Of a stretch of DNA of 11,741 nucleotides, positions 1 through 11,741 are shown in pieces. The notes beneath the pieces are model-generated. The model was given only the letters and a program-made list of their open reading frames with translations, searched no databases and had not been told where the DNA came from. How positions within the stretch are numbered: the stretch's first letter is position 1; every line of letters begins with the position of its first letter. Origin of the DNA: Bordetella parapertussis (GTDB lineage Bacteria > Pseudomonadota > Gammaproteobacteria > Burkholderiales > SG8-41); the NCBI GenBank assembly GCA_945863085.1, contig CAMBCD010000055.1:1-11741 (forward strand), in the 5' to 3' direction. Made by a program: the position numbers and the translations under genes.

Positions 1-141
1 GCATTGAAGGCATACCAGCGCAGCTGCGCGACTGCATCCGCGTCGCTGTCGGCTGCCGGCTGCGTTACGTCGCCGCCGTTTCTGCTGTCTGAGGCCATCA
101 CAGCGCGCCGCCTGGCGCGGCAGTTCGAGGTGGCGCGATGA
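1..141 (+). CDS. C-terminal part of the join-spanning 64-residue protein
   Basis: The frame is open from base 1 and stops with TGA at 139-141. It is codon 19 onward of the gene whose complete copy lies at 11539-11733, so this is not a separate or truncated gene. Its stop overlaps the ATG at 138 of the next gene, which indicates translational coupling across the join. Product unknown. Confidence 0.85.
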   Translation, partial: ALKAYQRSCATASASLSAAGCVTSPPFLLSEAITARRLARQFEVAR

Positions 142-149
142 AATCAAAA
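1..149. repeat. Terminal direct repeat, left copy (circular join)
   Basis: These 149 bases are identical to 11593-11741. A long exact end-to-end repeat that falls inside a continuous reading frame is what an assembler leaves when it walks past the join of a circular molecule. The unit length is therefore 11,592 bp. A true terminally redundant linear genome would look the same, but rolling-circle Rep and PM2-like genes favour a circle. Confidence 0.92.
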
Positions 150-521
150 GTCACCATCCTTACGTCGCGGCTGCCGATGGAATGCGGCAGCGTGTCGATC
201 CCTGACCGCGTTGATCCTGCGACGCTCAACGATATTCAGCGTGTTGCTGTCGATGCCCTGCAGGCGGAATTGCAGCGGCTGCGGACGGCCGTGCTGGCGG
301 TCGGGGAAATCATCGGCTCAATATCCGAAGTGCAGCGGGAAACCGCGTTCCCTTACAACGTGCTGACCGATATCGACTTAGCCGATCTGCTGCGCCAGGT
401 GATGCAAACCCAGGAAGATTTTGACCATCAATTCGCCCTGGTGCTGCGCCCCTGGTTGAACCGATCACGCGCAGCTGAGGAAGTCGCAGAGCGCGTGAAA
501 ATTGAAATGGCTGGCGCGTAG
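138..521 (+). CDS. Hypothetical early protein, 127 residues
   Basis: I do not recognise the family. The ATG overlaps the preceding stop (ATGA), typical of coupled phage genes. The product is soluble and mixed-charge with no membrane segment. Residues about 30-65 are rich in Leu, Gln and Glu and look helical or coiled-coil; the last 20 residues are also helical and charged. It lies in the early block between the control region and Rep, so a role in replication or host takeover is possible but unproven. It is followed by an intrinsic terminator at 563-594, so this may be where some early transcripts end. Confidence 0.72.
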   Translation: MKSKVTILTSRLPMECGSVSIPDRVDPATLNDIQRVAVDALQAELQRLRTAVLAVGEIIGSISEVQRETAFPYNVLTDIDLADLLRQVMQTQEDFDHQFALVLRPWLNRSRAAEEVAERVKIEMAGA

Positions 522-562
522 TGACCTGCAATCGCTGCAGGATTATTCGACGCGCTTTTTTG

Positions 563-594
563 GCCGCCCTGGCTACCGGGGCGGCTTTTCTTTT
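563..594 (+). terminator. Intrinsic terminator between early genes
   Basis: Arms GCCGCCC (563-569) and GGGCGGC (579-585) pair perfectly around a 9-nt loop, followed by a T tract broken by one C (586-594). It sits in the 88-bp gap after the gene ending at 521. The Shine-Dalgarno GGAGG of the next gene begins only 3 bases after the T tract, so transcription of the downstream early genes and Rep must read through it unless a promoter here was missed. Confidence 0.7.
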
Positions 595-613
595 GTGGAG
601 GTCGATGAAATGA
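595..613 (+). promoter_or_regulatory. Shine-Dalgarno plus two-codon start-stop frame
   Basis: GGAGG (597-601) serves two ATGs: 605, which reads Met-Lys-stop, and 610, the start of the KOW-like gene. The TGA of the mini-frame (611-613) overlaps the ATG at 610. The 3-nt spacing to 605 is poor and the 8-nt spacing to 610 is good, so 610 should dominate; the mini-frame may tune initiation or be incidental. Confidence 0.45.
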
Positions 614-852
614 AGGCGAAGAAAAAAGCTGTAAAGAAAACCGCTGCGCGCAAACCTGCAGCGAAAAAATCCCCGTTCACCGTGGGCCAGCGCGTCAAGG
701 TTCACTATGGCGAATGGGGAAATGCTAAAGGCACGGTCGAAAGCATCGGCGAAGATGTCATGGTGCTGCTGGACGTGAACATTCGCGGCGGCGCTGTCGG
801 TTTCGATGCTGCAAACCTGATCGCATTGCCGGCCGCAGCTGAGCGGGGCTGA
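610..852 (+). CDS. Basic-tailed KOW/SH3-like protein, 80 residues
   Basis: This is probably a nucleic-acid-binding protein. Residues 2-20 carry nine Lys and one Arg mixed with Ala and Pro, like histone H1 or AlgP tails. Residues about 22-74 form a small beta-barrel pattern: VGQRVKVHYGEWGNAKGTV, then alternating hydrophobics and a VGFDAANL ending, as in KOW or SH3-type barrels. The start at 610 is chosen because GGAGG at 597-601 is 8 nt upstream and the basic tail begins there; an in-frame TTG at 502 would place the terminator inside the gene. A minute ATG-AAA-TGA frame at 605-613 overlaps the start. Function in genome compaction or transcription is inference. Confidence 0.75.
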   Translation: MKAKKKAVKKTAARKPAAKKSPFTVGQRVKVHYGEWGNAKGTVESIGEDVMVLLDVNIRGGAVGFDAANLIALPAAAERG

Positions 853-854
853 CC

Positions 855-1064
855 GTGAAAAAAGAGGCGTTCGACCAGCTGCCCGAAGCTGACCGCATGC
901 TGGTGAAGATGACGCGCGGGGAGTTTGATGTTTTGTTTGCCCGGCTGAAACTGGCAAACCAGGCTCCCGATTCCGCGACGTGCCTGGCCGTTCTTGACCA
1001 GGCTGAAACGTCTTTTAAGGCGTTGCGGGCGTTCCTGGGCCGCTGCATCAAGGCTGGCCTTTGA
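855..1064 (+). CDS. Hypothetical early protein, 69 residues
   Basis: The GTG start lies 2 bases after the preceding stop, with a weak purine-rich site (GCGGGG) upstream. The product is a small, soluble, helical protein rich in Leu, Ala, Asp and Lys, with a single Cys in each half and no recognisable motif or membrane segment. Its TGA overlaps the TTG start of the next gene. It belongs to the early block before Rep. I do not recognise a family. Confidence 0.65.
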   Translation: MKKEAFDQLPEADRMLVKMTRGEFDVLFARLKLANQAPDSATCLAVLDQAETSFKALRAFLGRCIKAGL

Positions 1065-1273
1065 CTCCGGCGGAATTCTCGCGGGCCTTTGAGGCGGCGG
1101 TGCAGCTGCCGTGGCGTTACAGGGCCGGCCTGGCGCTGGTGCTGCTCTACCGCGCCGCCTGGTGGCCGGGCCTTGTAAGGGCTGTCCTGCGGCTTCCTGA
1201 CGCACCCACGGCGGTGCCGAACCGGGCGCAGCGGCGGGCCGCAGCCCGTTATAAGGCTTCGCCGCCGCTGTGA
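1061..1273 (+). CDS. Hypothetical protein with one hydrophobic helix, 70 residues
   Basis: The start is a TTG overlapping the upstream stop (TTGA), so expression would depend on coupling; the rare start lowers confidence. Residues about 20-38 are hydrophobic with Arg and Tyr inside and Trp-Trp at the end, suggesting an amphipathic or short membrane helix. The C-terminal third is Arg/Ala-rich. The gene ends 46 bases before Rep. No family is recognised. Confidence 0.5.
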   Translation: MTPAEFSRAFEAAVQLPWRYRAGLALVLLYRAAWWPGLVRAVLRLPDAPTAVPNRAQRRAAARYKASPPL

Positions 1274-1287
1274 TGCCTATTTCCACA

Positions 1288-1301
1288 GGTCGAAACCGAC
1301 C
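1288..1301 (+). repeat. Small hairpin just upstream of rep
   Basis: GGTCG and CGACC pair around AAAC in the 46-base gap before the Rep start. There is no T tract, so it is not a terminator. It could affect Rep translation, since no good Shine-Dalgarno is visible before 1320. It could also be chance in GC-rich DNA. Confidence 0.3.
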
Positions 1302-1319
1302 GAACGCGCGGCTCTCGGT

Positions 1320-2597: not shown

Positions 2598-2691
2598 GCG
2601 TGGCGCAATCGCTGACCTGGCGGCCGTCATCGACCAGCTGACGCAAGATGTTGAGTCACTGAAAAGGGAAGTTAAAAATGGCAAACCCTGA
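2506..2691 (+). CDS. Small coiled-coil protein nested with the rep 3' end, 61 residues
   Basis: ATG 2506 has AAGGTG 7 nt upstream and starts inside Rep, overlapping it by 92 bases in another frame; ATG 2524 is an alternative. The N-terminal 20 residues are basic, followed by SPTVAMFLGH and a helical segment. Residues 36-58 have heptad-like hydrophobic spacing (LAAVIDQL, VESL) and suggest a short coiled coil. It could be an oligomeric DNA-binding or Rep-accessory protein, which is inference. Its end overlaps the next gene by 14 bases. Confidence 0.65.
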   Translation: MDLQTRMKSIKTQVAKMLGSPTVAMFLGHAERGAIADLAAVIDQLTQDVESLKREVKNGKP

Positions 2692-3022
2692 TTATGGTTA
2701 CTGCAGCTGCCCGGTGTGCCAATACGCGCGCGCCGCCGTTCGCATCGCTGCAAACAACAAGGCGTATATCAGCTGCGACAACTGCGTGTCGAACATCAGG
2801 ACGCTGTCGAGCATCGGCGATAAAGACATCCGCGCGATGATGACCAGCCGCGTTGACGGCTTAGAGAATAACCCCGCGCCGAAACCTGGTGCCGGGGCGG
2901 GTGCCGAGGCGTCGCCAGGTGCCGCAGCTGCAGCTGCACCCGCCCCAGCTGGTGACAAGGCGAAAAAACAGGGCGGCTTCGCTGACGCGCTCGACGTGCT
3001 GACCGGGGGCAAGCGTGGATAA
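2678..3022 (+). CDS. Zinc-ribbon protein with Ala/Pro-rich tail, 114 residues
   Basis: The N-terminus carries CxCPxC (C9, C11, C14) and, 19 residues on, CDNC (C33, C36), a Cys4 zinc-ribbon arrangement seen in small nucleic-acid-binding phage proteins. Residues about 66-95 are low-complexity Pro, Ala and Gly, probably a disordered linker, followed by a Lys-containing helix to the end. ATG 2678 has a GGGAAG site upstream. It follows Rep and precedes the virion block, so it might be a single-strand binding, late-transcription or packaging factor; none is shown by sequence. The tail overlaps the next start by 8 bases. Confidence 0.75.
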   Translation: MANPDYGYCSCPVCQYARAAVRIAANNKAYISCDNCVSNIRTLSSIGDKDIRAMMTSRVDGLENNPAPKPGAGAGAEASPGAAAAAAPAPAGDKAKKQGGFADALDVLTGGKRG

Positions 3023-3503
3023 GGACGCCATTAAAACCGCCGGCAGCGGCGCGCCTGCCGCTGATAATCCTGATCTGAATTCGCTACAGGGCGATGCCGC
3101 GCGCGTCGATGCTGCCGCCGATCCGCAGCCTGAACCGCCGCCGGCTGGCGCTGATGTGCCGCCAGCTGGTGAGGCCGCCAGGGAAGGGGTGCATTCCATC
3201 TCGACGGTGCAGCTGGTGCAGGGGGTGCTTCTGGGGTCGGGCAATCTCCTGGCGATGCGCTATCCCGCCGTGAAGCGGGTTTACACAGAGGAGCGTTGCG
3301 GCATGGTCGGCGCTGCCCTGGCGCCGGTGCTGGATCGCTGGGGCATCACTGCGAAAGACAGCGTTGCCATGCAATACGTGGTTGCCATCGGCGCGCTGGT
3401 GATGTTGGGCATGGATACCGTCGAGGTCATCAAAGGCTCGACGCATGAAAACACTGCCGGCCGCGCTCATCCTGGCGGGCCTGCGCCGAAGCCGGTGCCA
3501 TGA
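3015..3503 (+). CDS. Probable membrane-associated virion protein, 162 residues
   Basis: The GTG start at 3015 overlaps the previous gene by 8 bases and has GGGGGC upstream. Residues 1-58 are acidic, Ala/Pro-rich and probably disordered. Residues 64-112 form helices with conserved-looking MRYPAVKRVYTEE. One membrane segment lies at about 118-136, followed by a polar, Pro-rich C-terminus. Its stop overlaps the packaging ATPase start (ATGA). Membrane proteins beside the ATPase in PM2-like and PRD1-like phages often belong to the internal membrane or the packaging vertex, so that role is inferred. I do not recognise the family. Confidence 0.7.
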   Translation: MDKDAIKTAGSGAPAADNPDLNSLQGDAARVDAAADPQPEPPPAGADVPPAGEAAREGVHSISTVQLVQGVLLGSGNLLAMRYPAVKRVYTEERCGMVGAALAPVLDRWGITAKDSVAMQYVVAIGALVMLGMDTVEVIKGSTHENTAGRAHPGGPAPKPVP

Positions 3504-4162
3504 AGGGCAGCGACAACCAGGCGGCTTTTGTGGCCGTCATCGGCTCGACCGGCAGCGGCAAGTCGCATTTTGTGAAAGCGGTGCTGGCCGCGAAACCGCC
3601 GCGCCTGATGATCTGGGATGCCATGCGCGAATACGATCACGCCGGCAAAGTCATCAAGGAAAAAACCGCTGACCTGGTGGCGCATCTGCGAAAAGTTTCC
3701 GGCGGCGACTTCGCTGTGGTTTACCAGCCGCGCAAAGATACCGAGTCGGTAATGCGCGACCAGTTTTCAATTTTCTGCAAAGCTGCCCTGGCGGTGCGGA
3801 ATGTGCTGCTGGTGGTCGAGGAAATGGCGCTGGTGACAAAGGCCGGATACTCGCCGCCTGGCTGGCTCGAAGTGGTGACCGGCGGCCGGCACTATGGCGT
3901 TAAAGTCGTTGGCACGTCGCAGCGGCCGGCGCTGCTGGATAAAACGTTTTTTTCCAACTGCACACATATCCGCGTCGGCAAGCTGACCAGCGCGGGCGAT
4001 AAAAAAACCATCGCCGACGCCATCGACGTGCCGGTCGATCTGCTCCGCGAAGTGCGCCCGCGTCAGTGGGTGGTGAAAGACCTGGTCAACGGGGAAATCT
4101 CTTACGAGGGATTCACGCCCGGCCAGGCGGCTGCATCCGCCAAAAAGCGCCGCGCGCGCTGA
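3500..4162 (+). CDS. A32/FtsK-type genome-packaging ATPase (PM2 P9-like)
   Basis: This is a P-loop ATPase thought to pump DNA into the procapsid at the vertex. Walker A is GSTGSGKS (15-22, K21 binding phosphate). Walker B is NVLLVVEEM (101-109) with acidic residues E107 and E108. A sensor-like GTSQRP lies at 138-143. The 220-residue length fits the compact ATPases of PM2, PRD1 and related double jelly-roll viruses; tailed-phage terminases are much larger and carry a nuclease domain that is absent here. The C-terminus is very basic (KKRRAR) and may contact DNA or capsid. The start overlaps the upstream stop (ATGA). It lies shortly before the capsid gene, the usual order in this virus group. 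Confidence 0.88.
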   Translation: MKGSDNQAAFVAVIGSTGSGKSHFVKAVLAAKPPRLMIWDAMREYDHAGKVIKEKTADLVAHLRKVSGGDFAVVYQPRKDTESVMRDQFSIFCKAALAVRNVLLVVEEMALVTKAGYSPPGWLEVVTGGRHYGVKVVGTSQRPALLDKTFFSNCTHIRVGKLTSAGDKKTIADAIDVPVDLLREVRPRQWVVKDLVNGEISYEGFTPGQAAASAKKRRAR

Positions 4163-4184
4163 TTCCCTAACGTTATAAGGCGTT

Positions 4185-4209
4185 TGCGCCCTGGTGCCGC
4201 CAGGGCGCA
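4185..4209 (+). repeat. Strong hairpin before the capsid gene pair
   Basis: Arms GCGCCCTGG (4186-4194) and CCAGGGCGC (4200-4208) pair perfectly around 5 nt, with a further T-A pair outside. No T tract follows, so it is not a classical terminator. It sits in the 98-bp gap between the ATPase and the 40-residue membrane gene and could be an RNA-processing or mRNA-stabilising hairpin at the 5' end of the abundant capsid message. Confidence 0.55.
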
Positions 4210-4260
4210 GCGTGGCGGCGTCTTTCTGTCTCTCCCGACAATTTTTAATGAGGTGCCGTA

Positions 4261-4383
4261 ATGGATCTGAAAAAACTGGCCATCGCTTACGCAACCTTCG
4301 TGGCCTTCGGTGTGTTCACTGCCCTGGTGGTGCGCCCGATGGTGAAAAAAGCCGAAGTTCCGCTGCTCAAAGACGTGCTGTAA
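4261..4383 (+). CDS. Small single-span membrane protein, 40 residues
   Basis: The frame runs ATG to TAA with GAGGT 6 nt upstream. It begins MDLKKLAIAYATF, continues with a hydrophobic span at about residues 6-25, and ends in a basic then mixed tail (VKKAEVPLLKDVL). It lies 34 bases before the major capsid gene, with its own ribosome site and a hairpin upstream, so it is probably made with the capsid protein. PM2 has several small membrane proteins that anchor the capsid to its internal membrane; this is a good candidate for such a role, by position and shape only. Confidence 0.75.
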   Translation: MDLKKLAIAYATFVAFGVFTALVVRPMVKKAEVPLLKDVL

Positions 4384-4417
4384 CCGGCGCGCCGGCAAAC
4401 CCGAAGGGAAACCGATC

Positions 4418-5227
4418 ATGGATTTAGTGCTTACTCCGCTGGCGAACGTCGCCGCAAACTCCAAAGCTACGGGCAAGTGGAATGATGCCCTGGGCTACAC
4501 CATCGACCGCATCATTTTGACGCTGGGCGGCGGTGTGATGACCAAAGCGTTGATGTCGAACATCAAGCTGCAGGCGAACGGCAAAACGTTCTGGGAAGAT
4601 ACCGGATCGCGCACCGATTCCCGGATGCAGCATCGCGGCATCACGGCTTCGGCAAATTATCTGGCCATCGACTTTTCGGAAATCCGCGCGCGCACCATCG
4701 TCGGCCAGTCGGTCGGCGGTATTGATACCGTGTCGTGCGGCATCCGCGACCTGAGTGCTGAAATTACCATCGGTGCTGCAACCACGCCGACAATTTCCGC
4801 AATCGCCCAGGTGTCGGCGGCTCCGCAGAAAGACCAGTCCTACAGCACGCTGATGTCGAAGGTGTTGAGTTTTACGCAAAACTTCGGCGCGGCTGGTGAG
4901 TTCCCGCTAGATATCCCGTATGGCCGCCAGGCTGGCGCGCAGATCAAGCGCGTATTCCTGTTCGGTGCAACGGTGACCGCCGCGCGGGTCAAGAAAAACG
5001 GCATTGATGTCTGGAACCGAAACGATGCGCTGAATGACTTCATCCTGACCGAATACCAGCGCACCCCGCAGGCGAACATGGTCTGCATCGACTTCATCGA
5101 AGACGGCAATATGTCGAAGGCGCACAACGCGGCCAATTCGCAGACGCATCAATGGTTCGCCACGGTGAGCGGTGCCGGCAACGTTGACGTGGTGTGCGAG
5201 CTGCTCGACCCGCTGGCCAACAACTAA
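4418..5227 (+). CDS. Major capsid protein, PM2 P2-like double jelly roll
   Basis: This is the shell-forming protein, expected as trimers of two fused beta jelly rolls. The 269-residue length equals that which I recall for PM2 P2. I recognise the P2 N-terminal-domain pattern: ANSKATGKWNDALGYTIDRI, then KLQANGKTFWEDTGSRTD (about residues 50-68) and YLAIDFSEIRARTI (about 87-101). Alternating hydrophobic strands fill the rest, with a second-half hinge near 130-150. There is no signal peptide or membrane segment, as expected. ATG 4418 has GAAGGGA upstream at good spacing. It follows the ATPase and a small membrane gene, as expected for this lineage. Assignment is by recognition of the family; no alignment was run. 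Confidence 0.85.
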   Translation: MDLVLTPLANVAANSKATGKWNDALGYTIDRIILTLGGGVMTKALMSNIKLQANGKTFWEDTGSRTDSRMQHRGITASANYLAIDFSEIRARTIVGQSVGGIDTVSCGIRDLSAEITIGAATTPTISAIAQVSAAPQKDQSYSTLMSKVLSFTQNFGAAGEFPLDIPYGRQAGAQIKRVFLFGATVTAARVKKNGIDVWNRNDALNDFILTEYQRTPQANMVCIDFIEDGNMSKAHNAANSQTHQWFATVSGAGNVDVVCELLDPLANN

Positions 5228-5240
5228 GAAAGGGCGCGGT

Positions 5241-5522
5241 ATGAACCCCTATCTTTACGGCACTCCGACCGTCGCGCCGCCGCCTGGCCTGACTCTCGGC
5301 GATGAATGGTGGCAGAAGCTGGTCAGTTACGGCGTCGGCCGATACATCGACTCCGAAACGCTGCAGCCGCACCAGGCCGCTGAGTTTGCGCGCCTGGGCT
5401 TGGGGCCGAACGGGGAATACTACCCGCGCGGGGTGCCGATGACCGGCGCGCTGAGTAATCCCCTGGTGCTGGCGCTGGGTGTTGTTGCGGTCGCTGGCGT
5501 CGCCTATCTCGCTTTGAAGTAA
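5241..5522 (+). CDS. Tail-anchored membrane protein, 93 residues
   Basis: The start at 5241 is chosen because GAAAGGG lies upstream and it is 13 bases after the capsid stop; an in-frame ATG at 5172 would overlap the capsid gene. The first 70 residues are soluble, with Pro-rich APPPG, DEWWQKLVSYGVGRY and HQAAEFARLGLGPNGEYYPRG. A single membrane span at about 74-92 ends in Lys. Placement right after the capsid gene and a C-terminal anchor fit a minor virion protein that spans the internal membrane and faces the shell. No family name can be given. Confidence 0.75.
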   Translation: MNPYLYGTPTVAPPPGLTLGDEWWQKLVSYGVGRYIDSETLQPHQAAEFARLGLGPNGEYYPRGVPMTGALSNPLVLALGVVAVAGVAYLALK

Positions 5523-5603
5523 CGGCGGCGCTGTGTGGCCGTCATCCAGCGCGCCGGCCTTTGAGGATGATTACGCCGGAATTCCTGAATTGGCCGGCGC
5601 ATC

Positions 5604-5634
5604 AAAAACCGCCGTTGGTTCGGGCGGTTTTTTT
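5604..5634 (+). terminator. Intrinsic terminator inside the virion operon
   Basis: AAAAACCGCC (5604-5613) pairs with GGCGGTTTTT (5623-5632) around a 9-nt loop, and the T run continues to 5634. The A/T flanks make it symmetric, so it could work on both strands. GGAGG of the next gene follows at once (5635-5639). Highly expressed capsid transcripts may end here while minor-protein genes get readthrough, a plausible way to set dosage. The 121-bp gap contains no other convincing gene. Confidence 0.75.
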
Positions 5635-5643
5635 GGAGGTTCG

Positions 5644-5889
5644 ATGAATCCGGCACTGATCGCCGCAGCTGCACAGGTGTTTTCTTCTGCGGTCGCGTCG
5701 CCGCCGGCCGGGCCGTCGCGCGCCGATGCGTCAAACAATTTTGCCTTTGATAACTCCGGCTTTGTCGTGGACTTCGGGCCTGGTGGGGCCACGTCCAGCA
5801 AGACGGCCGGCGTTCCTTCCTGGTTGATCGCTGGCGCTGTCGCCGGCGCTGTTTTGATGGGGCTGGTATGGATAAAGAAAAAAGCCTGA
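5644..5889 (+). CDS. Small tail-anchored virion-type membrane protein, 81 residues
   Basis: ATG 5644 has GGAGG 4 nt upstream. An in-frame GTG at 5533 would add 37 residues but would run through the terminator hairpin, so it is rejected. The N-terminus is Ala-rich and amphipathic. Residues 29-45 (ASNNFAFDNSGFVVDFG) look beta-stranded and conserved in style. A membrane span lies at 59-77 and ends with WIKKKA, a positive stop-transfer. It probably belongs to the internal membrane or vertex set. The next gene starts inside its end, overlapping by 22 bases. Confidence 0.75.
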   Translation: MNPALIAAAAQVFSSAVASPPAGPSRADASNNFAFDNSGFVVDFGPGGATSSKTAGVPSWLIAGAVAGAVLMGLVWIKKKA

Positions 5890-6284
5890 CCCTGCAGCCG
5901 GTCGCCTGGCGCGATGAACATGCTGCGCTGTTCGCCCGCGCGCTGATCTGCGACCCGCTGGCGACGCCTGAAACCCTGCGCCGCAACGTCGCGGCCGGGA
6001 TCGCGGCGCTGTTCGATGTTCTGGATGCCGGCGGCCAGGTGCTCGGCGCTGTGGTGCTGCGCGTTGAAAAGCGCGACGGCGGTGCTGACGGTGTGATTGA
6101 TGCCGGCGCGGGCCGGCTGCCGTTCACCAGGGAACAATTCCCGGCGCTGATTCGTGCGCTGGAAAAACAATTCCAGGGCGTCAATTTTTACCGCATCGAA
6201 ACCGGCCGGCGTTCGATCATTCGCCAGTTCGCCAGGCTCGGTTATAAACCGCGCCAGATCACGCTGCAGCGGGCGGCGGCATGA
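5868..6284 (+). CDS. GNAT-fold-like protein, 138 residues
   Basis: The layout resembles a GCN5-type N-acetyltransferase fold: an N-terminal strand (LTLQPVAWRDE), helices, paired strands (DVLDAGGQVLGAVVLRVEKR, residues about 46-66), a helix and then YRIETGRRSIIRQFARLGYKP (about 108-128), which resembles the GNAT end where a helix precedes LGY/F. The usual acetyl-CoA pyrophosphate loop (Q/RxxGxG/A) is not clear, so it may be inactive or structural. It lies among virion genes between two membrane proteins and overlaps both, with ATGA at its 3' end. Acetylation of a virion or host protein would be speculation. Confidence 0.6.
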   Translation: MDKEKSLTLQPVAWRDEHAALFARALICDPLATPETLRRNVAAGIAALFDVLDAGGQVLGAVVLRVEKRDGGADGVIDAGAGRLPFTREQFPALIRALEKQFQGVNFYRIETGRRSIIRQFARLGYKPRQITLQRAAA

Positions 6285-6751
6285 ACGCGCGCCTTCGTGA
6301 ATGTCTGCGCCAGGGCGTCGCGCCGCAGCTGCTGCACGCAGCCTGCTGCGCGCACAAGGGCGGGTCATCGTCTGCGAATGCGACAACCAGCAACAACATT
6401 GATAAACGCCTGGTGGTCGATTCCGGCCTGGGGGTCAGTGCCGATTCGTCAACGCTGACGTTGACCACGCTCGACGGCGGCGCGATTGGTCGCGCCTTTG
6501 ATTTTGCCGAGAGCGCCGACGCGCTGCAGGGCCAGACGGTGCAGCAGCTGCTGGGCCTGGTTGATCGTGTCTTTGAAAACTCCTTTGATGTGCTGGATAA
6601 AAATTCAGAGATCGTGAAAACGTCGGGCGCGATGGTGGCCACGGCTTACGACAACGCGAAAGGCGAGGGCGATGCAAAGCGCCTGGTGGCCTATGGCGTC
6701 ATTGCGGCGGTGGCCATCGTCGCTGTTCGCTCATTTGGAAAGGCGCGCTGA
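6281..6751 (+). CDS. Membrane-anchored virion protein, 156 residues
   Basis: The ATG overlaps the upstream stop. The N-terminus (1-28) has three Cys and several Arg. The middle (38-80) reads TSNNIDKRLVVDSGLGVSAD and a TLTTLDGGAIGRAFDFAESAD segment, a pattern I associate with minor structural proteins of small membrane-containing phages. A helical stretch (85-125) is followed by one membrane span at about 134-150 and a basic end (SFGKAR). It most likely sits in the virion membrane beneath the vertex, given that the putative vertex gene follows with a 1-base overlap. Family assignment is from memory of the pattern only. Confidence 0.7.
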   Translation: MNARLRECLRQGVAPQLLHAACCAHKGGSSSANATTSNNIDKRLVVDSGLGVSADSSTLTLTTLDGGAIGRAFDFAESADALQGQTVQQLLGLVDRVFENSFDVLDKNSEIVKTSGAMVATAYDNAKGEGDAKRLVAYGVIAAVAIVAVRSFGKAR

Positions 6752-7320
6752 TGCGTATCGCTGAGACTTTTGTTGCAGCAACGCCGAAGTCGTTTGGCGT
6801 GTTCGGGAATTTTTTCCGCATCCGCACGGCGACGGCCGGCATTGATGTTGAATTTCGGCGCGCGGGTAAAAAGCTGGCGGAAGACCTGGTTTCCGCGACG
6901 GCTGCCGAGTGGGCCTATCCCGAAGGCGGCTTTGACCAGGTCATTGTCACTTCATCGGGAACCCAGCTGGTCGAGTTTGATATTTATGCCGGCCGTGTCG
7001 GCTCCGATGCGGTGCAGGGCAATGTTTCGATTATTTCCCCGCCGGCCGGCGCGCATGTGCCGGCGGCCGTCGCTGTTACCAATGCCAGCATTGTTATCCT
7101 GGCGGCGAACGCTGCGCGGAAATATTTGTTGATTCAAAACGCGCACGCTACGGATACGCTGTGGGTGCGCTGCGATGGTGTGGCCGCAGCCGCGACGCCG
7201 GCCTGCCTGGCGATTCCGGCGGGTGGCGTGTGGGAACCGCCTTTTGTGCCAAGCGGTGAAATCCGCGGCATTCGTTCCGTCGCATCAGGCGGCAACAACG
7301 TTCACGTCATCGAGGGCTAG
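6751..7320 (+). CDS. Probable vertex/penton structural protein, 189 residues
   Basis: The protein is almost all beta with no membrane span and appears to have two small domains. Residues 1-95 have FFRIRTATAGIDVEF, then FDQVIVTSSGTQLVEFDIY, the pattern of phage vertex or baseplate-like jelly-roll proteins. Residues 107-189 have NASIVILAANAARKYLLIQN (111-130), LWVRCDG, IPAGGVWEPPF and a closing NNVHVIEG strand, a module seen in many phage virion proteins. The gene begins at TGATG after the membrane-protein gene and stops directly before the fibre gene. In PM2 the single spike protein P1 has both penton and receptor-binding parts; here they may be split between this and the next gene. Role is inferred. 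Confidence 0.65.
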   Translation: MRIAETFVAATPKSFGVFGNFFRIRTATAGIDVEFRRAGKKLAEDLVSATAAEWAYPEGGFDQVIVTSSGTQLVEFDIYAGRVGSDAVQGNVSIISPPAGAHVPAAVAVTNASIVILAANAARKYLLIQNAHATDTLWVRCDGVAAAATPACLAIPAGGVWEPPFVPSGEIRGIRSVASGGNNVHVIEG

Positions 7321-7752
7321 ATGTTTTTCGCGCCTGTCGTCAACGTTCCAGGAACCGCCGCCAATGTCACCGGCACGGTGGCCGTGGTCAATGGCGGAAC
7401 CGGCGCGGCGACCGCCGCGAACGCGCGCGCCGCGCTGGTGGTGCCGACGCGAACCGGCGGCGATGCGTCGGGGTCATGGGGTATTAACGTTACGGGGAGT
7501 TCTGCATCCTGCACGGGTGCGGCGGCGGGCAATGTCGATAATGACAATGGAAATATCGGCATCGGCTCTTTTATCCTTGGTCGGGCAAATACGGTAATCG
7601 CGGCGGGCGGCACCAGTGCCGCCATTAGCGGCGCGATGTGGGATGCGTCTGCTGTGGATTGGGCGTTCACGGCGGTTGCGGGAACGTGGCGAAACATTAA
7701 CGGGGTGCCCTGCCAAACCGGAGATATAACTGTTTTTCAGAGGGTCGCGTGA
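7321..7752 (+). CDS. Fibre/spike protein resembling tailed-phage tail fibres, 143 residues
   Basis: The N-terminal part contains VVNGGTGAATAANARAALVV and DASGSWGINVTGSS, the repeat signatures found in trimeric tail-fibre shafts of tailed phages. The C-terminal half is rich in Gly, Ala and Asn with TAVAGTWRNINGVP and ends VFQRVA, like fibre tip domains. It is a candidate host-recognition protein at the virion vertex. It begins at the base after the preceding stop and is followed by a fibre-assembly-like gene, the usual pairing in tailed phages. The genome has no tail genes, so the module was probably acquired from a tailed phage or prophage. Confidence 0.72.
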   Translation: MFFAPVVNVPGTAANVTGTVAVVNGGTGAATAANARAALVVPTRTGGDASGSWGINVTGSSASCTGAAAGNVDNDNGNIGIGSFILGRANTVIAAGGTSAAISGAMWDASAVDWAFTAVAGTWRNINGVPCQTGDITVFQRVA

Positions 7753-8102
7753 TGGTGTTTTCAGGGGTGCGGAATCCTGTTTTTTCCAGTGCTGACGGTC
7801 GGATGATCGTCTGCCGGGTGCAGTTCGAGCATCTGCCTGGGTGGACGCCGTTTAGCGCGAGTGCTGATGACGCTGAGGCGCACGGGCGCGAAATTCACGC
7901 GGCTGCGGTGCGCGGTGATTATGGCGCGGTTGGTCCCTATGTCGCGCCGGTGCTGACCGCACAGCAAAAGCTAGAGGCTGAGCTTCGCGCCCGTGGCGTG
8001 ACGGCTGAAAAAGTCGCGCTTGCACTGCTCGACCAGGACAGCGCGAAAATCACTGAATTGCGCGCTGCACTGACCGCCGCAAAAGCCGAGGCCGCCAAGT
8101 GA
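7752..8102 (+). CDS. Tail-fibre assembly (Tfa)-like protein, 116 residues
   Basis: The start is taken at ATG 7752 (TGATG overlap); a GTG at 7749 would add one residue. The middle region, with PGWTPFSASADDAEAHGREIHAAA and a GDYGAVGPYVAP segment, resembles fibre-assembly chaperones or small fibre-partner proteins of tailed phages, which carry a similar PF.A...D.E.HGR...A..G..G.V..Y pattern. Residues 75-116 are a charged helical, probably coiled-coil tail (KLEAELRARGVTAEKVALAL). Position directly after the fibre gene supports the call. It may chaperone fibre trimerisation or remain bound to it. Confidence 0.65.
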   Translation: MVFSGVRNPVFSSADGRMIVCRVQFEHLPGWTPFSASADDAEAHGREIHAAAVRGDYGAVGPYVAPVLTAQQKLEAELRARGVTAEKVALALLDQDSAKITELRAALTAAKAEAAK

Positions 8103-8809
8103 GCGCGCGCGCCGTCGCCGCCCTGGTGGTGATTGCTGGCGCAGCTGGCGCGGCCTACCTGGTGCTGCGTGAGCGCCAGGATGAAATTTTTCAGATCGAC
8201 AATCCGGCCGTGCCGTTCGAATGGTATTCCAATGACGCGCCGGAGCCGGGCGTCGTGATTGATGCCGGTGAATATGAGGCCGGCGCGTTCGATGCGGTCG
8301 GCGATGCGGTGCTGCCGATCGCCTACAAAATAGAAAACGTTTTTTCCTCTGTGTGGGGTGGCCGGATGGATCTGTCGCTTGCGGGCCTGGCGCACCTGAA
8401 ACAGTTCGAGGGTTTGCGCCTGCAGCCTTACAAGGATTCTGCGGGCCTGTGGACTATCGGTTATGGCCATCTGCTCAAGTCCGGCGAATGGTGGGATTCG
8501 ATCACCGAGCAATTCGCGGCGCAGCTGCTGGCCGATGATGTCGGCACTGCCGAGGATGCGGTTAATGCCCTGGTCAAGGTGCCGCTGACTCAGCCGCAGT
8601 TCGATGCCCTGGTGTCATTCGTTTACAACGTCGGCGTGGGTGCCTTCCGGCGCTCGACGCTGCTTAAAAAGTTGAACGCGGGCGACTATGCCGGCGCGGC
8701 GGGGCAATTCCCGCTGTGGCGCAACGCGGGCGGGCGTGTGGTGCAGGGCCTGGTGAATCGTCGCGCGGCCGAAGTCGCGCTGTTTGCTGGTGGAGGGTAT
8801 TACGCATGA
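8099..8809 (+). CDS. Membrane-anchored GH24 (T4-type) lysozyme, 236 residues
   Basis: It hydrolyses the glycan bonds of peptidoglycan. The lysozyme domain spans about residues 90-236. The catalytic triad spacing of T4 lysozyme (E11, D20, T26) is reproduced exactly by E104, D113 and T119 in QFEGLRLQPYKDSAG and LWTIGYGH. The family motif FNVGVG-like FVYNVGVGAFRRSTLL is present downstream. Residues 1-89 are an added part: a membrane span at 5-23, RER, then an acidic linker with PVPFEWYSNDAPEP. The GTG start at 8099 overlaps the previous stop (GTGA). An internal ATG at 8366 would give a soluble lysozyme. The anchor suggests a signal-anchor endolysin or a virion membrane lysozyme for entry. Confidence 0.9.
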   Translation: MSARAVAALVVIAGAAGAAYLVLRERQDEIFQIDNPAVPFEWYSNDAPEPGVVIDAGEYEAGAFDAVGDAVLPIAYKIENVFSSVWGGRMDLSLAGLAHLKQFEGLRLQPYKDSAGLWTIGYGHLLKSGEWWDSITEQFAAQLLADDVGTAEDAVNALVKVPLTQPQFDALVSFVYNVGVGAFRRSTLLKKLNAGDYAGAAGQFPLWRNAGGRVVQGLVNRRAAEVALFAGGGYYA

Positions 8810-9006
8810 AGGCATCCGATCTCTTGATTCTCGCCGCATCGGCGACGCTGGCGTATTGGTTGCTGCGCTGGGCGCGCAGTGAACAGGGCGCGGTGCAAAC
8901 CTACCTGCAGCACGCGAACAGCGCGCCGGCCGGCTTCGTGTTTGACCCGGTGTTAGACGGCTGGGCGCGCACCCTGCCGAACGGAACAAAGCAGATTTAT
9001 GTCTAG
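8806..9006 (+). CDS. Small membrane protein, 66 residues
   Basis: ATG 8806 overlaps the lysozyme stop and has GGAGGG upstream. One membrane span at about residues 5-22 is followed by RWARSEQ and a soluble tail with FVFDPVLDGWARTLPNGTKQIYV. Placement between the lysozyme and other membrane genes allows either an exit or a virion-membrane role. The family is not recognised. Confidence 0.68.
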   Translation: MKASDLLILAASATLAYWLLRWARSEQGAVQTYLQHANSAPAGFVFDPVLDGWARTLPNGTKQIYV

Positions 9007-9322
9007 CTGCGCCGTCAACGTGCCGGGGCTGACCTGCGCCCAGGGAAAATTAATCCTGGTCGGTTTGGGCGTCGGCGTTGTCCTGGTGGCACTCCTGCCG
9101 ATCATCGCGCGGCATGCGCGCGGCATCGGTTCGGCCGCGGGCGGCGTGGTGGTGTCTGCGGCTGATGGGTTTATCGGCGAAGCGGTGAACAGTGCCGGCG
9201 ACATCGTCGGCATTCCGCGCACCAATCAAACGCAATGCGAAATCGACCTGGCCGCCGGCCGGTATTGGGATGCGTCTTTCAGCTGCCCGGCCGGCACATT
9301 TTTAAAAGGGGTGTTCTCATGA
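8999..9322 (+). CDS. Membrane protein with Cys-bearing ends, 107 residues
   Basis: The ATG overlaps the end of the preceding gene by 8 bases. The N-terminus MSSCAVNVPGLTCAQGK contains two Cys, a span at about 19-37 follows, then basic RHARG, a Gly/Ala-rich stretch at about 42-65 and a C-terminal domain with CEIDLAAGRYWDASFSCPAG. The paired Cys at both ends could form disulphides if they face the periplasm. No family is recognised; it is part of the late membrane-protein series. Confidence 0.68.
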   Translation: MSSCAVNVPGLTCAQGKLILVGLGVGVVLVALLPIIARHARGIGSAAGGVVVSAADGFIGEAVNSAGDIVGIPRTNQTQCEIDLAAGRYWDASFSCPAGTFLKGVFS

Positions 9323-9708
9323 CTGGTTTGTTGTCATTGGTTCTGCCGGCGCTGGTGCCGGTGCTGGCCGATGGGGTGCGCGGGCTGATCGCGCGCGTGA
9401 CCCAGGGCGCGGGGGCGCAGCCGGCAAACGTCGGCGAAGCTATTCAGCTGATGGAAGCGCAAACCGCACGGCTGCAGGCGCTGGCGGAAATGGACAAACT
9501 CGCGCCGAATGCGTCGCCCTGGGTCGCCGATCTGCGCGGCGCGTTCCGGTATGTCGCTGTGGCCATCATCATCACGGCAACGCTGGGCGCGGTGCTGTTC
9601 GCCGCTGACCAGGTGCCGGAACCTGTGCAGCTGGTGCTGCTCGATCTGTCGGGCGCGTGTATGTCGTTCATCATCGGTGAACGCATGTATATCGGGCTGC
9701 GGAAATGA
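9319..9708 (+). CDS. Putative 3TM-type holin, 129 residues
   Basis: Holins make pores in the inner membrane that time lysis and release or activate the lysozyme. Three hydrophobic stretches are visible: about 4-24, 77-95 and 103-119. Between the first and second lies a charged helix (ALAEMDKLAPNASPWVADLRG). The C-terminus FIIGERMYIGLRK resembles the end of 3TM holins of the gene-transfer-agent type (GTA_holin_3TM). The start overlaps the upstream stop (ATGA) and has AAAGGGG upstream. Position two genes after the lysozyme supports the call, though a virion membrane protein cannot be excluded. Confidence 0.6.
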   Translation: MTGLLSLVLPALVPVLADGVRGLIARVTQGAGAQPANVGEAIQLMEAQTARLQALAEMDKLAPNASPWVADLRGAFRYVAVAIIITATLGAVLFAADQVPEPVQLVLLDLSGACMSFIIGERMYIGLRK

Positions 9709-9914
9709 AGCGGCGCGGGGTGCATGTGGTCACGGTGCTGGTGGCGTCGGCGGCCATCATTGGCGGCGTTGCCTGGTTCGCGCAGTGGTCGGCGCGGCAG
9801 CAACGCCGGCAGCAGGTTGCGGCCACGATGTATGCCGGCCTGCCGGGCATGGTGAATCCCTACACGGGCCAGAACATGAGCGCGCAGCAGGTCACCACAA
9901 TGGAGTGGTTGTGA
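9705..9914 (+). CDS. Small N-anchored membrane protein, 69 residues
   Basis: The start overlaps the holin stop (ATGA). Basic KRR is followed by a membrane span at about 8-27, then a polar segment with SARQQRRQQ, ending in PYTGQNMSAQQVTTMEWL. The shape (short cytoplasmic end, single span, hydrophilic tail) could fit an inner-membrane spanin or a virion membrane protein, but the tail is short for a spanin and no lipobox partner is visible. Confidence 0.62.
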   Translation: MKRRGVHVVTVLVASAAIIGGVAWFAQWSARQQRRQQVAATMYAGLPGMVNPYTGQNMSAQQVTTMEWL

Positions 9915-10087
9915 TGGGCATGGGCGAAGCTGCGCTGATCGCCCTGGCGACGGCCGCCGTGAATGGCGCGGTCACCTGGGGCGTGGTTTCTACAAAGCTG
10001 GAATGGCTGCGCCGCGATGTTGATGCCGCGCATGCCAGGCTCGACCAGCTGAACGCGCCGCCGGCCTATTCAGCGCGGCGGAAATAA
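9914..10087 (+). CDS. Small membrane/coiled-coil protein, 57 residues
   Basis: ATG 9914 overlaps the previous stop by one base (TGATG). One hydrophobic helix at about 6-25 is followed by a charged helix KLEWLRRDVDAAHARLDQL (about 28-46), a layout common in small phage lysis-module proteins of the XhlA-like type. It is the last gene of the rightward operon, and its 3' end overlaps the convergent regulator by 18 bases. A strong terminator follows at 10121-10149. Confidence 0.65.
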   Translation: MGMGEAALIALATAAVNGAVTWGVVSTKLEWLRRDVDAAHARLDQLNAPPAYSARRK

Positions 10088-10504
10088 CGCCAGGCCGATT
10101 CTCGACTCACTGACCAGCTGCGCGCGGTAAAAAGCCGCGCGTTTTTTTTCGTCCTGCAGTTCGGCGCGCAGCCTGGTGATGTCGGCCTGCAGCTGGCGGC
10201 GCTCCACGTCGAAGCCGGCACGGCTGCCGTGCAAGGTCGGCAGTTCCTCCAATTCGACGCGGGAGAATCCGCGCCGCCAGCGCGGCGAATACAGCAGGGC
10301 ATCGCGGCCGATGCGCCAGCCTGTCCAATCAGGGCCGGCCAGGGCCGCCAGGTCGCCGATCTGCGCCAGGGCGGCCAGGCGGGCGACGGCCGCCGGCAGC
10401 CGGGCCTGGCCGCGTTTCCATCGCCGCGCGGTGGTAGCGTCAACGCTGGCCAGGCGCACCAGGTCATTGATGCTGCAATACTGCAGAATTTCCCCTGATT
10501 CCAT
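10070..10504 (-). CDS. HTH regulator with DUF3653-like domain, 144 residues
   Basis: This is probably a DNA-binding regulator. Residues 11-40 (SINDLVRLASVDATTARRWK) have helix-turn-helix spacing with a basic recognition helix. Residues 59-89 carry DWTGWRIGRDALLYSP, the W.GW.....LYSP signature I recall from DUF3653 proteins of filamentous and other small phages. Residues 100-132 form a charged coiled coil, probably for dimerisation. It is the second gene of the leftward unit, 21 bases after the first; only a weak GAGG/GGGTG site precedes its ATG. Its 3' end contains the rightward terminator and overlaps the last rightward gene. The likely target is the 11015-11239 region, by inference. Confidence 0.75.
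   Translation of the reverse strand: MESGEILQYCSINDLVRLASVDATTARRWKRGQARLPAAVARLAALAQIGDLAALAGPDWTGWRIGRDALLYSPRWRRGFSRVELEELPTLHGSRAGFDVERRQLQADITRLRAELQDEKKRAAFYRAQLVSESRIGLALFPPR
10121..10149 (+). terminator. Intrinsic terminator of the rightward operon
   Basis: CGCGCGG (10121-10127) and CCGCGCG (10135-10141) form a perfect 7-bp stem with a 7-nt A-rich loop, followed by eight T (10142-10149). It ends transcription 34 bases beyond the last rightward gene and lies inside the 3' part of the convergent regulator gene. Confidence 0.88.
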
Positions 10505-10525
10505 CCTCGCACCCGTTTTTATTGT

Positions 10526-11014
10526 TTATTGGGGCTGTAGGCTATTCCGGCGGGCGGGCTGGTGTCTCCGGTCATTCCAGGTGGTGAGCGCGCAGCAGCA
10601 GGCCGCCAGCGCAAACGTCAGGGCAAATAACAGCGTCGGATTCGTATAATGTGTATTCACCAGGGCAAAAAGGCCGGCCAGGCTGGTTTGTGATTCGCCC
10701 GCGTCCAGGCCGAAAATAACAAACAACATCAACGCGCCGACGCCGGCCGCCGCCGCCCTGGCTGCTGTTTCCCAGGCTCGTTTCACTTCCGGGCGTTTCG
10801 CCCGTTCCGCCGCCACTTCGGCCAGGATTGCGCCGGCCGGTTCCTGCAGCAGTTCCGCGACCTTGATGCACATGGATTCGTCCAGGCGAGAGCGCCCGGC
10901 GCGGTAGCCGTAAATGGCGCTTTTTTGGCATTCAAGTACTTGCGCCAGACGGTAGTCGCTGCCGATCTGGTGGCGGGCCTTGATCGCGTTCAAAAGCTGG
11001 TTGGTGGTTCGCAT
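10526..11014 (-). CDS. HTH regulator with membrane segments, DUF3693-like, 162 residues
   Basis: Residues 1-80 match the DUF3693 type of small-phage regulator: TTNQLLNAIKARH, a helix-turn-helix region (SDYRLAQVLECQKSAIYGYR, 19-38) and the ending AERAKRPEVKRAWE (69-82). Unusually, two hydrophobic spans follow at about 86-103 and 127-144, with a polar loop between and a basic tail. This predicts a membrane-tethered DNA-binding protein. It is the first leftward gene, with AAGGAAGGGG upstream of its ATG and a candidate promoter overlapping the palindrome at 11059-11080, so self-regulation is likely. A dif-like sequence (10639-10657) lies in codons 120-126. Confidence 0.78.
   Translation of the reverse strand: MRTTNQLLNAIKARHQIGSDYRLAQVLECQKSAIYGYRAGRSRLDESMCIKVAELLQEPAGAILAEVAAERAKRPEVKRAWETAARAAAAGVGALMLFVIFGLDAGESQTSLAGLFALVNTHYTNPTLLFALTFALAACCCALTTWNDRRHQPARRNSLQPQ
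10639..10657 (+). other. dif-like sequence, candidate XerC/XerD attachment site
   Basis: GATTCGTATAA followed by TGTGTATT matches the first 19 bases of the gammaproteobacterial dif site as I recall it (GATTCGCATAA, TGTATA, TT) at 17 of 19 positions. These cover the XerC-binding arm and the central region. The adjoining XerD arm (10656-10666) does not match. Such half-good sites are typical of phage attP sites used by host XerC/XerD, as in filamentous phages. It lies inside the regulator gene, which is a caution. Confidence 0.45.
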
Positions 11015-11016
11015 TT

Positions 11017-11027
11017 TTTCCCCTTCC
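11017..11027. repeat. 11-bp motif TTTCCCCTTCC, copy 1
   Basis: On the minus strand it reads GGAAGGGGAAA and forms the Shine-Dalgarno of the leftward regulator. The same 11-mer occurs at 11185-11195 and inverted at 11226-11236. Confidence 0.7.
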
Positions 11028-11046
11028 TTATAACGTGATGCGGCCG

Positions 11047-11075
11047 ATTTTGTGCCTAGACCCTTGATCTATCAA
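11047..11075 (-). promoter_or_regulatory. Candidate sigma-70 promoter for the leftward regulators
   Basis: On the minus strand TTGATA (11075-11070) and CAAAAT (11052-11047) are separated by 17 bases, matching the consensus at 5 and 4 of 6 positions. The -35 lies within the palindrome. The expected start near 11040 gives a 5' leader of about 25 bases before the ATG at 11014. Confidence 0.5.
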
Positions 11076-11080
11076 GGGTC
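11059..11080. promoter_or_regulatory. 22-bp perfect palindrome: operator and/or nicking origin
   Basis: GACCCTTGAT (11059-11068) and ATCAAGGGTC (11071-11080) are perfect inverted arms with a 2-bp centre. A third related half-site, CCCCTTGACC, follows at 11084-11093. The palindrome overlaps the candidate leftward -35, as expected for an operator of a dimeric regulator. Alternatively, its minus strand holds CTTGATA, the core of nicking sites of pC194- and phiX174-type Rep proteins, so it could be the double-strand origin. The two readings are not exclusive. Confidence 0.6.
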
Positions 11081-11087
11081 GCACCCC

Positions 11088-11117
11088 TTGACCCGGTAAC
11101 GGGGCATGCTCTAGGAT
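11088..11117 (+). promoter_or_regulatory. Candidate sigma-70 promoter for the rightward early operon
   Basis: TTGACC (11088-11093) and TAGGAT (11112-11117) are 18 bases apart. The -35 overlaps the third half-site of the palindrome motif, so one regulator could act on both divergent promoters. The transcript would start near 11124 and carry a leader of about 115 bases with a hairpin able to mask the ribosome site. Confidence 0.42.
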
Positions 11118-11184
11118 GCGCCCCATGATCTAGGGGTGGGTCATGTACTCGCCCCCAGGTCTGGCGTTTTGGCCTGGTCGGTTG

Positions 11185-11236
11185 TTTCCCCTTCCTGCCC
11201 GGTTTCAGAGCGCCCCTTTTAACGTGGAAGGGGAAA
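11185..11236 (+). promoter_or_regulatory. Inverted repeat sequestering the early Shine-Dalgarno
   Basis: TTTCCCCTTCC (11185-11195) and GGAAGGGGAAA (11226-11236) are perfect 11-base complements with a 30-base loop. The right arm holds the ribosome site of the gene at 11240. If the leader folds, the site is hidden and translation of the first early gene would be low. Confidence 0.55.
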
Positions 11237-11239
11237 ACC

Positions 11240-11542
11240 ATGCTTAGAAACAGAGAAACAATCGCGGGCGCTGTCGCCCGTGAAATCGACCGCATCGAAA
11301 AGACCGGCGACGCCATAGGCGAGGGCGCTGCATATAAAGCGGCATTCGACCGGGCCGGCTCCAGCTGGTCAAAACACTGCGATGTATTCAAGGCCGATGC
11401 GGAAGTTATGGACGCCGGCGCTTGGACTTGCCAGCTGTGCGGGTATCGCGGGTTTTGGGAAGGCGGGCCGCACTGCGGGCCGGGTTCAGCTGATTACGCT
11501 TTTTATCCTGGCCGTCCTGCTCTGCGCGTGGTGGCCGCATGA
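11240..11542 (+). CDS. First early protein, Cys/His-containing, 100 residues
   Basis: This is the first rightward gene after the control region. The ATG has GGAAGGGG 6 nt upstream, within an 11-bp inverted repeat. Residues 1-58 are helical and charged. Residues 63-79 read TCQLCGYRGFWEGGPHC, giving C64, C67, H78 and C79, a possible zinc knuckle. The remainder is short. Phage first-early proteins are often small regulators or host-takeover factors; here that is inferred from position. Its stop overlaps the next start (ATGA). The family is not recognised. Confidence 0.72.
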   Translation: MLRNRETIAGAVAREIDRIEKTGDAIGEGAAYKAAFDRAGSSWSKHCDVFKADAEVMDAGAWTCQLCGYRGFWEGGPHCGPGSADYAFYPGRPALRVVAA

Positions 11543-11733
11543 AAACCATCACGCTGCAGGTCGATGAATCCGAACGCCTGGCGCTGGTCGCCGCATTGAA
11601 GGCATACCAGCGCAGCTGCGCGACTGCATCCGCGTCGCTGTCGGCTGCCGGCTGCGTTACGTCGCCGCCGTTTCTGCTGTCTGAGGCCATCACAGCGCGC
11701 CGCCTGGCGCGGCAGTTCGAGGTGGCGCGATGA
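11539..11733 (+). CDS. Hypothetical early protein spanning the circular join, 64 residues
   Basis: The ATG overlaps the preceding stop. The N-terminus MKTITLQVDESERLALVAAL forms a strand then a helix, reminiscent of small ribbon-helix-helix-like or stress-type phage proteins but without diagnostic residues. The middle is Ser/Ala-rich with two Cys, and the end ARRLARQFEVAR is a basic helix. The stop overlaps the ATG at 11730, which equals the start at 138. Bases 1-141 are the duplicated 3' part of this gene. Confidence 0.68.
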   Translation: MKTITLQVDESERLALVAALKAYQRSCATASASLSAAGCVTSPPFLLSEAITARRLARQFEVAR

Positions 11734-11741
11734 AATCAAAA
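11593..11741. repeat. Terminal direct repeat, right copy (circular join)
   Basis: This is an exact copy of bases 1-149. Joining 11592 to position 1 keeps the 64-residue reading frame that starts at 11539 intact and leads directly into the gene at 138 through an ATGA stop/start overlap. Confidence 0.92.

Follow-up and report, generated by a model that had tools for sequence, protein, structure and literature searches.

Contig CAMBCD010000055.1 as the complete circular genome of a tailless, probably membrane-containing phage of the Vinavirales

Genome closure and the virion genes

The window, by which we mean the whole contig CAMBCD010000055.1 of 11,741 bases, codes for 28 called proteins (g01 to g28). 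Among these are a capsid protein, a packaging ATPase, and a rolling-circle replication initiator (Rep), and an exact repeat lies at the two ends:

1-149, no strand: terminal repeat, first copy, and circle joint (exact match to second copy)
11593-11741, no strand: terminal repeat, second copy (exact match to first copy)
1320-2597, + strand: Rep of the Rep_1 family (HUH, one invariant Tyr; PF01446 at 5.4e-10, phrog_11698 at 9.3e-63)
3500-4162, + strand: FtsK/HerA-type packaging ATPase (P9), 220 residues (phrog_2666 at 1.8e-31)
4418-5227, + strand: capsid protein, 269 residues, P2-type double jelly-roll (family and fold comparison)

We are highly confident that the window is the entire circular genome of a double-stranded DNA (dsDNA) phage of the order Vinavirales that lacks a tail and probably contains a membrane, with a most likely betaproteobacterial host and a position outside the family exemplars tested. 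This conclusion draws on the capsid family and fold, an ATPase PHROG in common with PM2 P9, matches in gene order and profile to PM2, NO16, and Vibrio phage 1.249.A, closure of the circle, the relatives and the capsid tree, and the presence of PM2-type capsid genes in the order of a Rhodoferax genome and in a clade relative named as Sulfuricella. The same evidence supports the initial annotation, which had described a complete tailless PM2-like element closed by a 149-base repeat and equipped with a 269-residue P2-like double jelly-roll capsid protein, a 220-residue A32/FtsK-type ATPase, and an HUH Rep.

The repeat is exact (1-149 equals 11593-11741) and yields an 11,592-bp circle with its joint at 11592/1. 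Exact end repeats are also present in 6 of 17 related IMG/VR loci (94 bp, 99 bp, and four of 127 bp; some of the stretches checked are shorter than their whole contig), and locus L009 has a 126-bp repeat ending 6 bases before the contig end. These lengths resemble assembler overlaps, which suggests that the repeat marks a circle, and the 149-bp repeat is probably such an overlap at the joint rather than a biological repeat. Two relatives, L001 (IMG/VR 3300002461_000550) and L006 (3300002461_000783), which share one IMG metagenome number, have the same gene order as the window and further support the circle, because g01, g03, and g04 occur in order in both and span the window's cut point; in L001 this run is preceded by the helix-turn-helix (HTH) gene and followed by Rep. 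The early open reading frames (ORFs) around the joint, all of them ORF calls, are as follows, and scans of the window for tRNAs and Rfam families found none.

11240-11542, + strand: early ORF g01 (present in L001, L006, L010, and L014)
11539-11733, crossing the joint to 141, + strand: early ORF g02 (found in none of the loci)
138-521, + strand: small early ORF g03 (present in L001 and L006)
610-852, + strand: small early ORF g04 (present in L001 and L006)
855-1064, + strand: small early ORF g05 (found in none of the loci)
1061-1273, + strand: small early ORF g06 (present in L006)

The capsid protein agrees with the P2 type in family and fold and matches a PHROG labeled major head protein, with 25% identity to the PM2 capsid; PDB entry 9t9v matches the NO16 capsid over its full length. 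Closer relatives are P0002 (88% identical), L006 (75%), and L001 (71% over 65 residues of partial sequence). In the phage collection the capsid matches 21 Vibrio phage records only, with identities below 29% among the matches listed; a DNA search of that collection gave no match to the window, and neither the capsid protein nor the DNA matched any plasmid record. The ATPase has the Walker A motif GSTGSGKS and shares phrog_2666 with PM2 P9 (2.6e-50 for the latter), though it falls under the cut-off of every Pfam FtsK/HerA-type family. Among the 20 of the 28 proteins scanned with Pfam and PHROGs there is no portal, tape measure, or large terminase, in agreement with the initial annotation, and no HK97 capsid; the lone label "terminase large subunit" is that of the PHROG on the ATPase, which is the PM2 P9 family.

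The genes flanking the ATPase and the capsid gene are mostly predicted membrane proteins:

2678-3022, + strand: zinc-ribbon-like small protein (g09), possibly a P14-like late activator (four-Cys pattern; weak hhalign matches, PM2 P14 6%, NO16_23 30%)
3015-3503, + strand: membrane protein (g10) at the PM2 gp h position (one hydropathy segment; hhalign to gp h not significant)
4261-4383, + strand: 40-residue single-span protein (g12) at the P7 position, between the ATPase and capsid genes (hydropathy; 70% identical in L006; no good hhalign match to PM2 or Jorvik P7)
5241-5522, + strand: single-span membrane protein (g14) at the P3 position (hydropathy; hhalign NO16_P3 30%, weak)
5533-5889, + strand: single-span membrane protein (g15) at the P8 position (hhalign NO16_17 81%)
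5868-6284, + strand: GNAT acetyltransferase-like protein (g16) (hhalign 98% to the GNAT of Vibrio phage 1.249.A, 48% to that of NO16; no Pfam match, and no hhalign match to the Jorvik GNAT)
6281-6751, + strand: membrane protein (g17), P10/gp j-like (hhalign 1.249.A_16 97%, NO16_15 95%, PM2 gp j 51%, Jorvik 26%)

A series of single-span membrane proteins had been anticipated, and hydropathy gives one segment each in g10, g12, g14, g15, g17, g23, g25, and g26, and one near the lysozyme N terminus, with three in g24 and two in g28; g16 and g18 barely exceed the threshold and are probably not membrane proteins. When 15 window genes were compared by profile-profile alignment (hhalign) with 61 proteins of PM2, Jorvik, NO16, and 1.249.A, good matches in the expected order were obtained for seven (g15, g16, g17, g18, g26, g27, and g28) and none for g09, g10, g12, g14, g21, g22, g23, and g24. 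Among the proteins at the P7, P3, P8, and gp h positions, only that at P8 reaches 81%, the others being positional.

Placement in the Vinavirales and the rival readings

Two hallmarks of the Vinavirales are present, a P2-type capsid and a P9-type ATPase near its gene, together with GNAT, P10-like, and P17-like proteins and HTH regulators (hhalign 98, 97, 92, and 97%, respectively, to at least one reference phage). By sequence or profile we show that the predicted capsid, ATPase, Rep, lysozyme, regulators, P17-like and GNAT-like proteins, and spike-base candidate (g18) stand in PM2/Autolykiviridae order. For the families we follow the International Committee on Taxonomy of Viruses as set out in portions of PMC12451628. 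The capsid tree has 63 rows, 34 of them the window, loci, and reference phages and 29 drawn from 120 listed proteins, and was built without the partial L001, L020, and L021 and the class hits L044 and L045. The window falls in a 40-row clade (support 100/99) that holds no exemplar of the Corticoviridae, Asemoviridae, Autolykiviridae, or Mestraviridae. NO16 and PG21 (Asemoviridae) lie across a 98/88 branch, on PM2's side, and Jorvik and YY (Mestraviridae) do not group with the window, both being long branches of unsure placement, as is one Vibrio row. Autolykiviridae traits are also missing, with no PolB among the 20 scanned proteins and a circular rather than linear genome. On this sequence evidence, the window lies beyond those named families for which a test was possible.

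Several points weigh against this placement. None of the 13 Jorvik proteins compared by hhalign has a good match; the equivalents of P7, P3, gp h, and P14 are assigned from where they lie and how long they are, with weak profile matches; g18 has no profile match to PM2 P1 (0.2%) and resembles it in structure only at the common-fold level, its fold matches being weak; the host is inferred from distant relatives; and virion, membrane, and lipid are predicted from the genes.

The Rep has the motif WHPHYH at residues 176 to 181, and its H177, H179, H181, Y235, and K238 are invariant in 10 of 10 aligned Reps, which bears out its reading as an HUH protein; it is 75% identical in L006 and, in part, L001. 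It matches 15 phage records, two of them Inoviridae and the other 13 Bifilivirus B5 and Propionibacterium phages, which we take to be inoviruses too. These nearest named-phage Reps, together with a one-sided gene layout and a + strand richer in G than in C across most 500-base windows, would suit a FLiP-like single-stranded DNA (ssDNA) phage that has a double jelly-roll capsid and a filamentous-phage-type Rep and packages single strands; in the parts of PMC5894146 and PMC9719478 used here, capsids of this kind enclose the ssDNA genomes of FLiP and phiCjT23. We regard this as very unlikely; the combination of an M13-like Rep with a FLiP-type capsid was not found. Membership in the Corticoviridae proper, which the PM2-type capsid, regulators a and c, and gp k would favor, is more improbable still: PM2 and GXT1010 pair at 100/99 apart from the window in the capsid tree, PM2 P12 is a Phage_GPA protein (PF05840, 7.2e-124) and not Rep_1, and the lysozyme is of T4 type, whereas PM2 P5 matches other PHROGs and no Pfam family. 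That the window is a tailed-phage fragment, or a chimera of tailed phage and plasmid, is scarcely credible despite the tail-fiber-type g19 and g20 and the T4-type lysozyme, since none of the portal, tape-measure, or HK97 families occurs in the scanned proteins, L001 and L006 have the same gene order, and the capsid fold, in the comparison with PM2 P2 that had been named in advance as a check, is a double jelly roll and contradicts it.

The window is a clean example of a Rep from a family other than PM2's, and Rep replacement, including by Rep_1, is already reported in the sections of PMC9502842 consulted, as are several Rep types in those of PMC1950889. Within the clade, surveyed without L010, L011, and L046, a Rep_1-type Rep is found in the window, L006, L007, L009, L012, and L014, and in part in L001, and no HUH Rep is seen in L008 and L013. 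L018 and L036 have Rep_1 though placed among genomes bearing the other Rep motif, for which Phage_GPA is confirmed in PM2 and L015 only; the NO16 Rep hits REP_ORF2-G2P. In L007 a Rep_1-type Rep occurs together with a further large ORF bearing the other motif (1178-2548 and 10634-12607), and 17 bp of the capsid gene are found again at 15157; L007 is perhaps two such elements in tandem. In the complete-looking L008, a candidate replication protein (606-1775; phrog_23635/13103, of unknown function) occupies the Rep place, and an ORF of L013 (6315-6722) looks like a possible zinc-ribbon transposase fragment.

Spike, lysis, and control genes

The spike module consists of three consecutive genes:

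6751-7320, + strand: spike base/penton candidate (g18), P1-like, without distal receptor domain (hhalign 1.249.A_17 98%)
7321-7752, + strand: tail-fiber-type tip (g19) (GGTGAATAANAR...VPTRTGGDASGSWGINVTG stretch in common with ten environmental proteins)
7752-8102, + strand: tail-fiber/fiber-assembly-type protein (g20) (phrog_1795 at 1.1e-12, phrog_1141 at 4.1e-12; scanned from 7749)

The best match of g18 is an autolykivirus protein that is itself not proven to be P1, and P0121 is a spike relative at 93%. PF13884, presumably Peptidase_S74, is on 2 of the ten environmental proteins that have the g19 stretch. For g20, 353 phage records match, 2 of them over at least 80% of its length, and among the matches listed 8 of 20 rows carry a tail or tail-fiber annotation. 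These tail-fiber-type proteins go beyond what the initial annotation had listed. The tip genes differ among relatives, with a Collar in L006 and another fiber in L001 (32% to g19). We tentatively suggest that the clade has a split vertex spike, with g18 as a conserved base and a separately encoded tip that is swapped with the parts that tailed phages use for receptor binding (fiber, collar, glycine-rich adhesin, and pectate-lyase tailspike). If true, a tailless virus of one realm draws host-recognition parts from another. The genome also points to a testable rule, namely that host choice is set by whichever gene follows the spike base, and that this gene can be similar to tailed-phage parts.

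Lysis and control functions lie downstream, apart from one element at the expected late-promoter position:

8099-8809, + strand: T4-type lysozyme (g21), candidate signal-anchor endolysin (Phage_lysozyme at 7.7e-50; N-terminal hydrophobic segment in residues 1-23)
8806-10087, + strand: small membrane and lysis genes g22 to g26 (hhalign, hydropathy)
9905-10087, + strand: g26, PM2 gp k (P17)-like (hhalign PM2 k 92%)
10070-10504, - strand: regulator g27, PM2 gp a-like (hhalign PM2 a 91%, NO16_7 89%)
10526-11014, - strand: HTH regulator g28, PM2 gp c-like, two C-terminal hydrophobic segments (phrog_4441 at 4.8e-22; hhalign PM2 c 97%, NO16_6 98%)
11015-11239, no strand: divergent control region with sigma-70-like sites on both strands and the palindrome ACCCTTGATCTATCAAGGGT at 11060-11079 (promoter-like site scan)
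4171-4180, + strand: CGTTATAAGG element (further exact copies at 1247, +, and 11026, -)

We take PM2 gp k to be P17. The three-span g24 is a holin candidate (GTA_holin_3TM, E 0.054, under the cut-off). In phrog_18872 g27 scores 0.0023, a weak match, and PM2 6.5e-95; the PHROG of g28 is also matched by a PM2 protein. Because of its two hydrophobic segments by hydropathy, g28 may be a membrane-bound regulator; PM2 gp c has 91 residues only. The genome has three sigma-70-like sites, the number expected by chance (2.7), two of them in the divergent region. The three exact copies of CGTTATAAGG, upstream of Rep, the virion operon, and the HTH gene, compare with 0.005 expected for this 10-mer, which was chosen after being seen. 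Among nine other loci scanned for it, L006 alone has it in the same place, with one mismatch, and L014 has it just before the ATPase gene. A common promoter or operator element is possible, and the PM2 late promoter sits at the place equivalent to the 4171 copy in the account excerpted from PMC1950889.

An origin at the palindrome was considered on account of a minus-strand CTTGATA and rejected, the heptamer being expected 0.41 times by chance and lying elsewhere or missing in relatives. CTTGATA is, we assume, the pC194/pUB110 nick heptamer. The palindrome is more likely an operator than an origin.

Host, proposed life cycle, and known systems

Of 399 genomes in the order to which a Rhodoferax genome belongs, 8, this one among them, carry PF25513, the family of PM2-type capsid genes, and one protein of the clade, P0119, is listed under a Sulfuricella metagenome-assembled genome. 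From such distant relatives, a betaproteobacterium is the most likely host. The parts of PMC9502842 consulted describe a mainly betaproteobacterial clade D, proposed as "Neaeraviridae," a name for which a literature search listed that paper only, and assign T4lyz-like lysins to phages whose predicted hosts are Betaproteobacteria. Capsid searches of the families of G107, G033, and G140 (22, 5, and 43 genomes) matched 2, 1, and 6 genomes, and a search of 369 genomes of a class matched 3, starting genomes included throughout and with no match closer than 46%. A scan of genome contigs gave one locus, at 32%, and viral-contig scans with the window Rep and ATPase, the L039 capsid, and A2 gave no new locus.

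Eight capsid proteins among 120 listed of 155 are on contigs longer than 70 kb, which hints at integration. Xer/dif integration of the window itself was considered and found no support: the closest approach to a dif site carries 8 mismatches, a value that shuffled sequences also reach. The scan has little power on free circles; PM2 and NO16 have 5 mismatches each, the chance level (equal to the best shuffle of 20). A dif-type site has been proposed for NO16 in Vibrio in the sections seen of PMC9966536. Among eight provirus-type relatives, six (L035, L036, and L038 to L041) have a dif-like site with at most 3 mismatches, L037 has one with 5, and L042 one with 6; no such site with up to 6 mismatches is on the Rhodoferax contig L005. 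In those six, PM2-type capsid genes adjoin the dif-like sites in genomes of the Rhodoferax order, and in L035, L038, L039, and L041 a 17- to 20-bp direct repeat is spaced 10.9 to 11.8 kb apart.

In the life cycle that we propose, Rep would nick the circle through Tyr235 to start rolling-circle replication, and g27 and g28 would hold a divergent early switch. The virion genes would be transcribed from a late promoter located between the ATPase and the P7-position gene, the single-span proteins would enter an inner membrane surrounded by capsid trimers, and the ATPase would pump in dsDNA. The spike base g18 would hold an exchangeable fiber-type tip (g19/g20) that binds the host, and the lysozyme and small membrane proteins would lyse the cell.

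The window adds a complete genome to a Vinavirales branch for which the phage collection searched contains no close isolate. It is an ordinary representative of an established order, new in itself and with a tip module of mild interest, and a sound and unsurprising addition to a group of which metagenomes and prophages have already supplied many sequences. As described by Yutin et al. 2022 (PMC9502842), clade D resembles it in relatives in the Rhodoferax order, a T4lyz-like lysin, GNAT, a small gene between ATPase and capsid, Rep replacement, and fiber genes (Figure 3 legend), but is described as prophages, whereas the window is a free circle. PM2 (Corticoviridae, NC_000867) shares capsid fold and length, ATPase family, regulators a and c, gp k, and overall gene order, and differs in a capsid only 25% identical, a Phage_GPA Rep, and a lysozyme of another family; the window in turn has a GNAT-like gene and a short spike base with separate tip genes. 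Vibrio phage 1.249.A (Autolykiviridae, MG592615) has GNAT, P10-like, and spike-base proteins at 97 to 98% by hhalign and a separate tip gene after the spike-base homologue, but is a linear record annotated with a family-B DNA polymerase and a putative terminal protein and lists no Rep. L006 and L001 are colinear with the window and differ in their tip genes.

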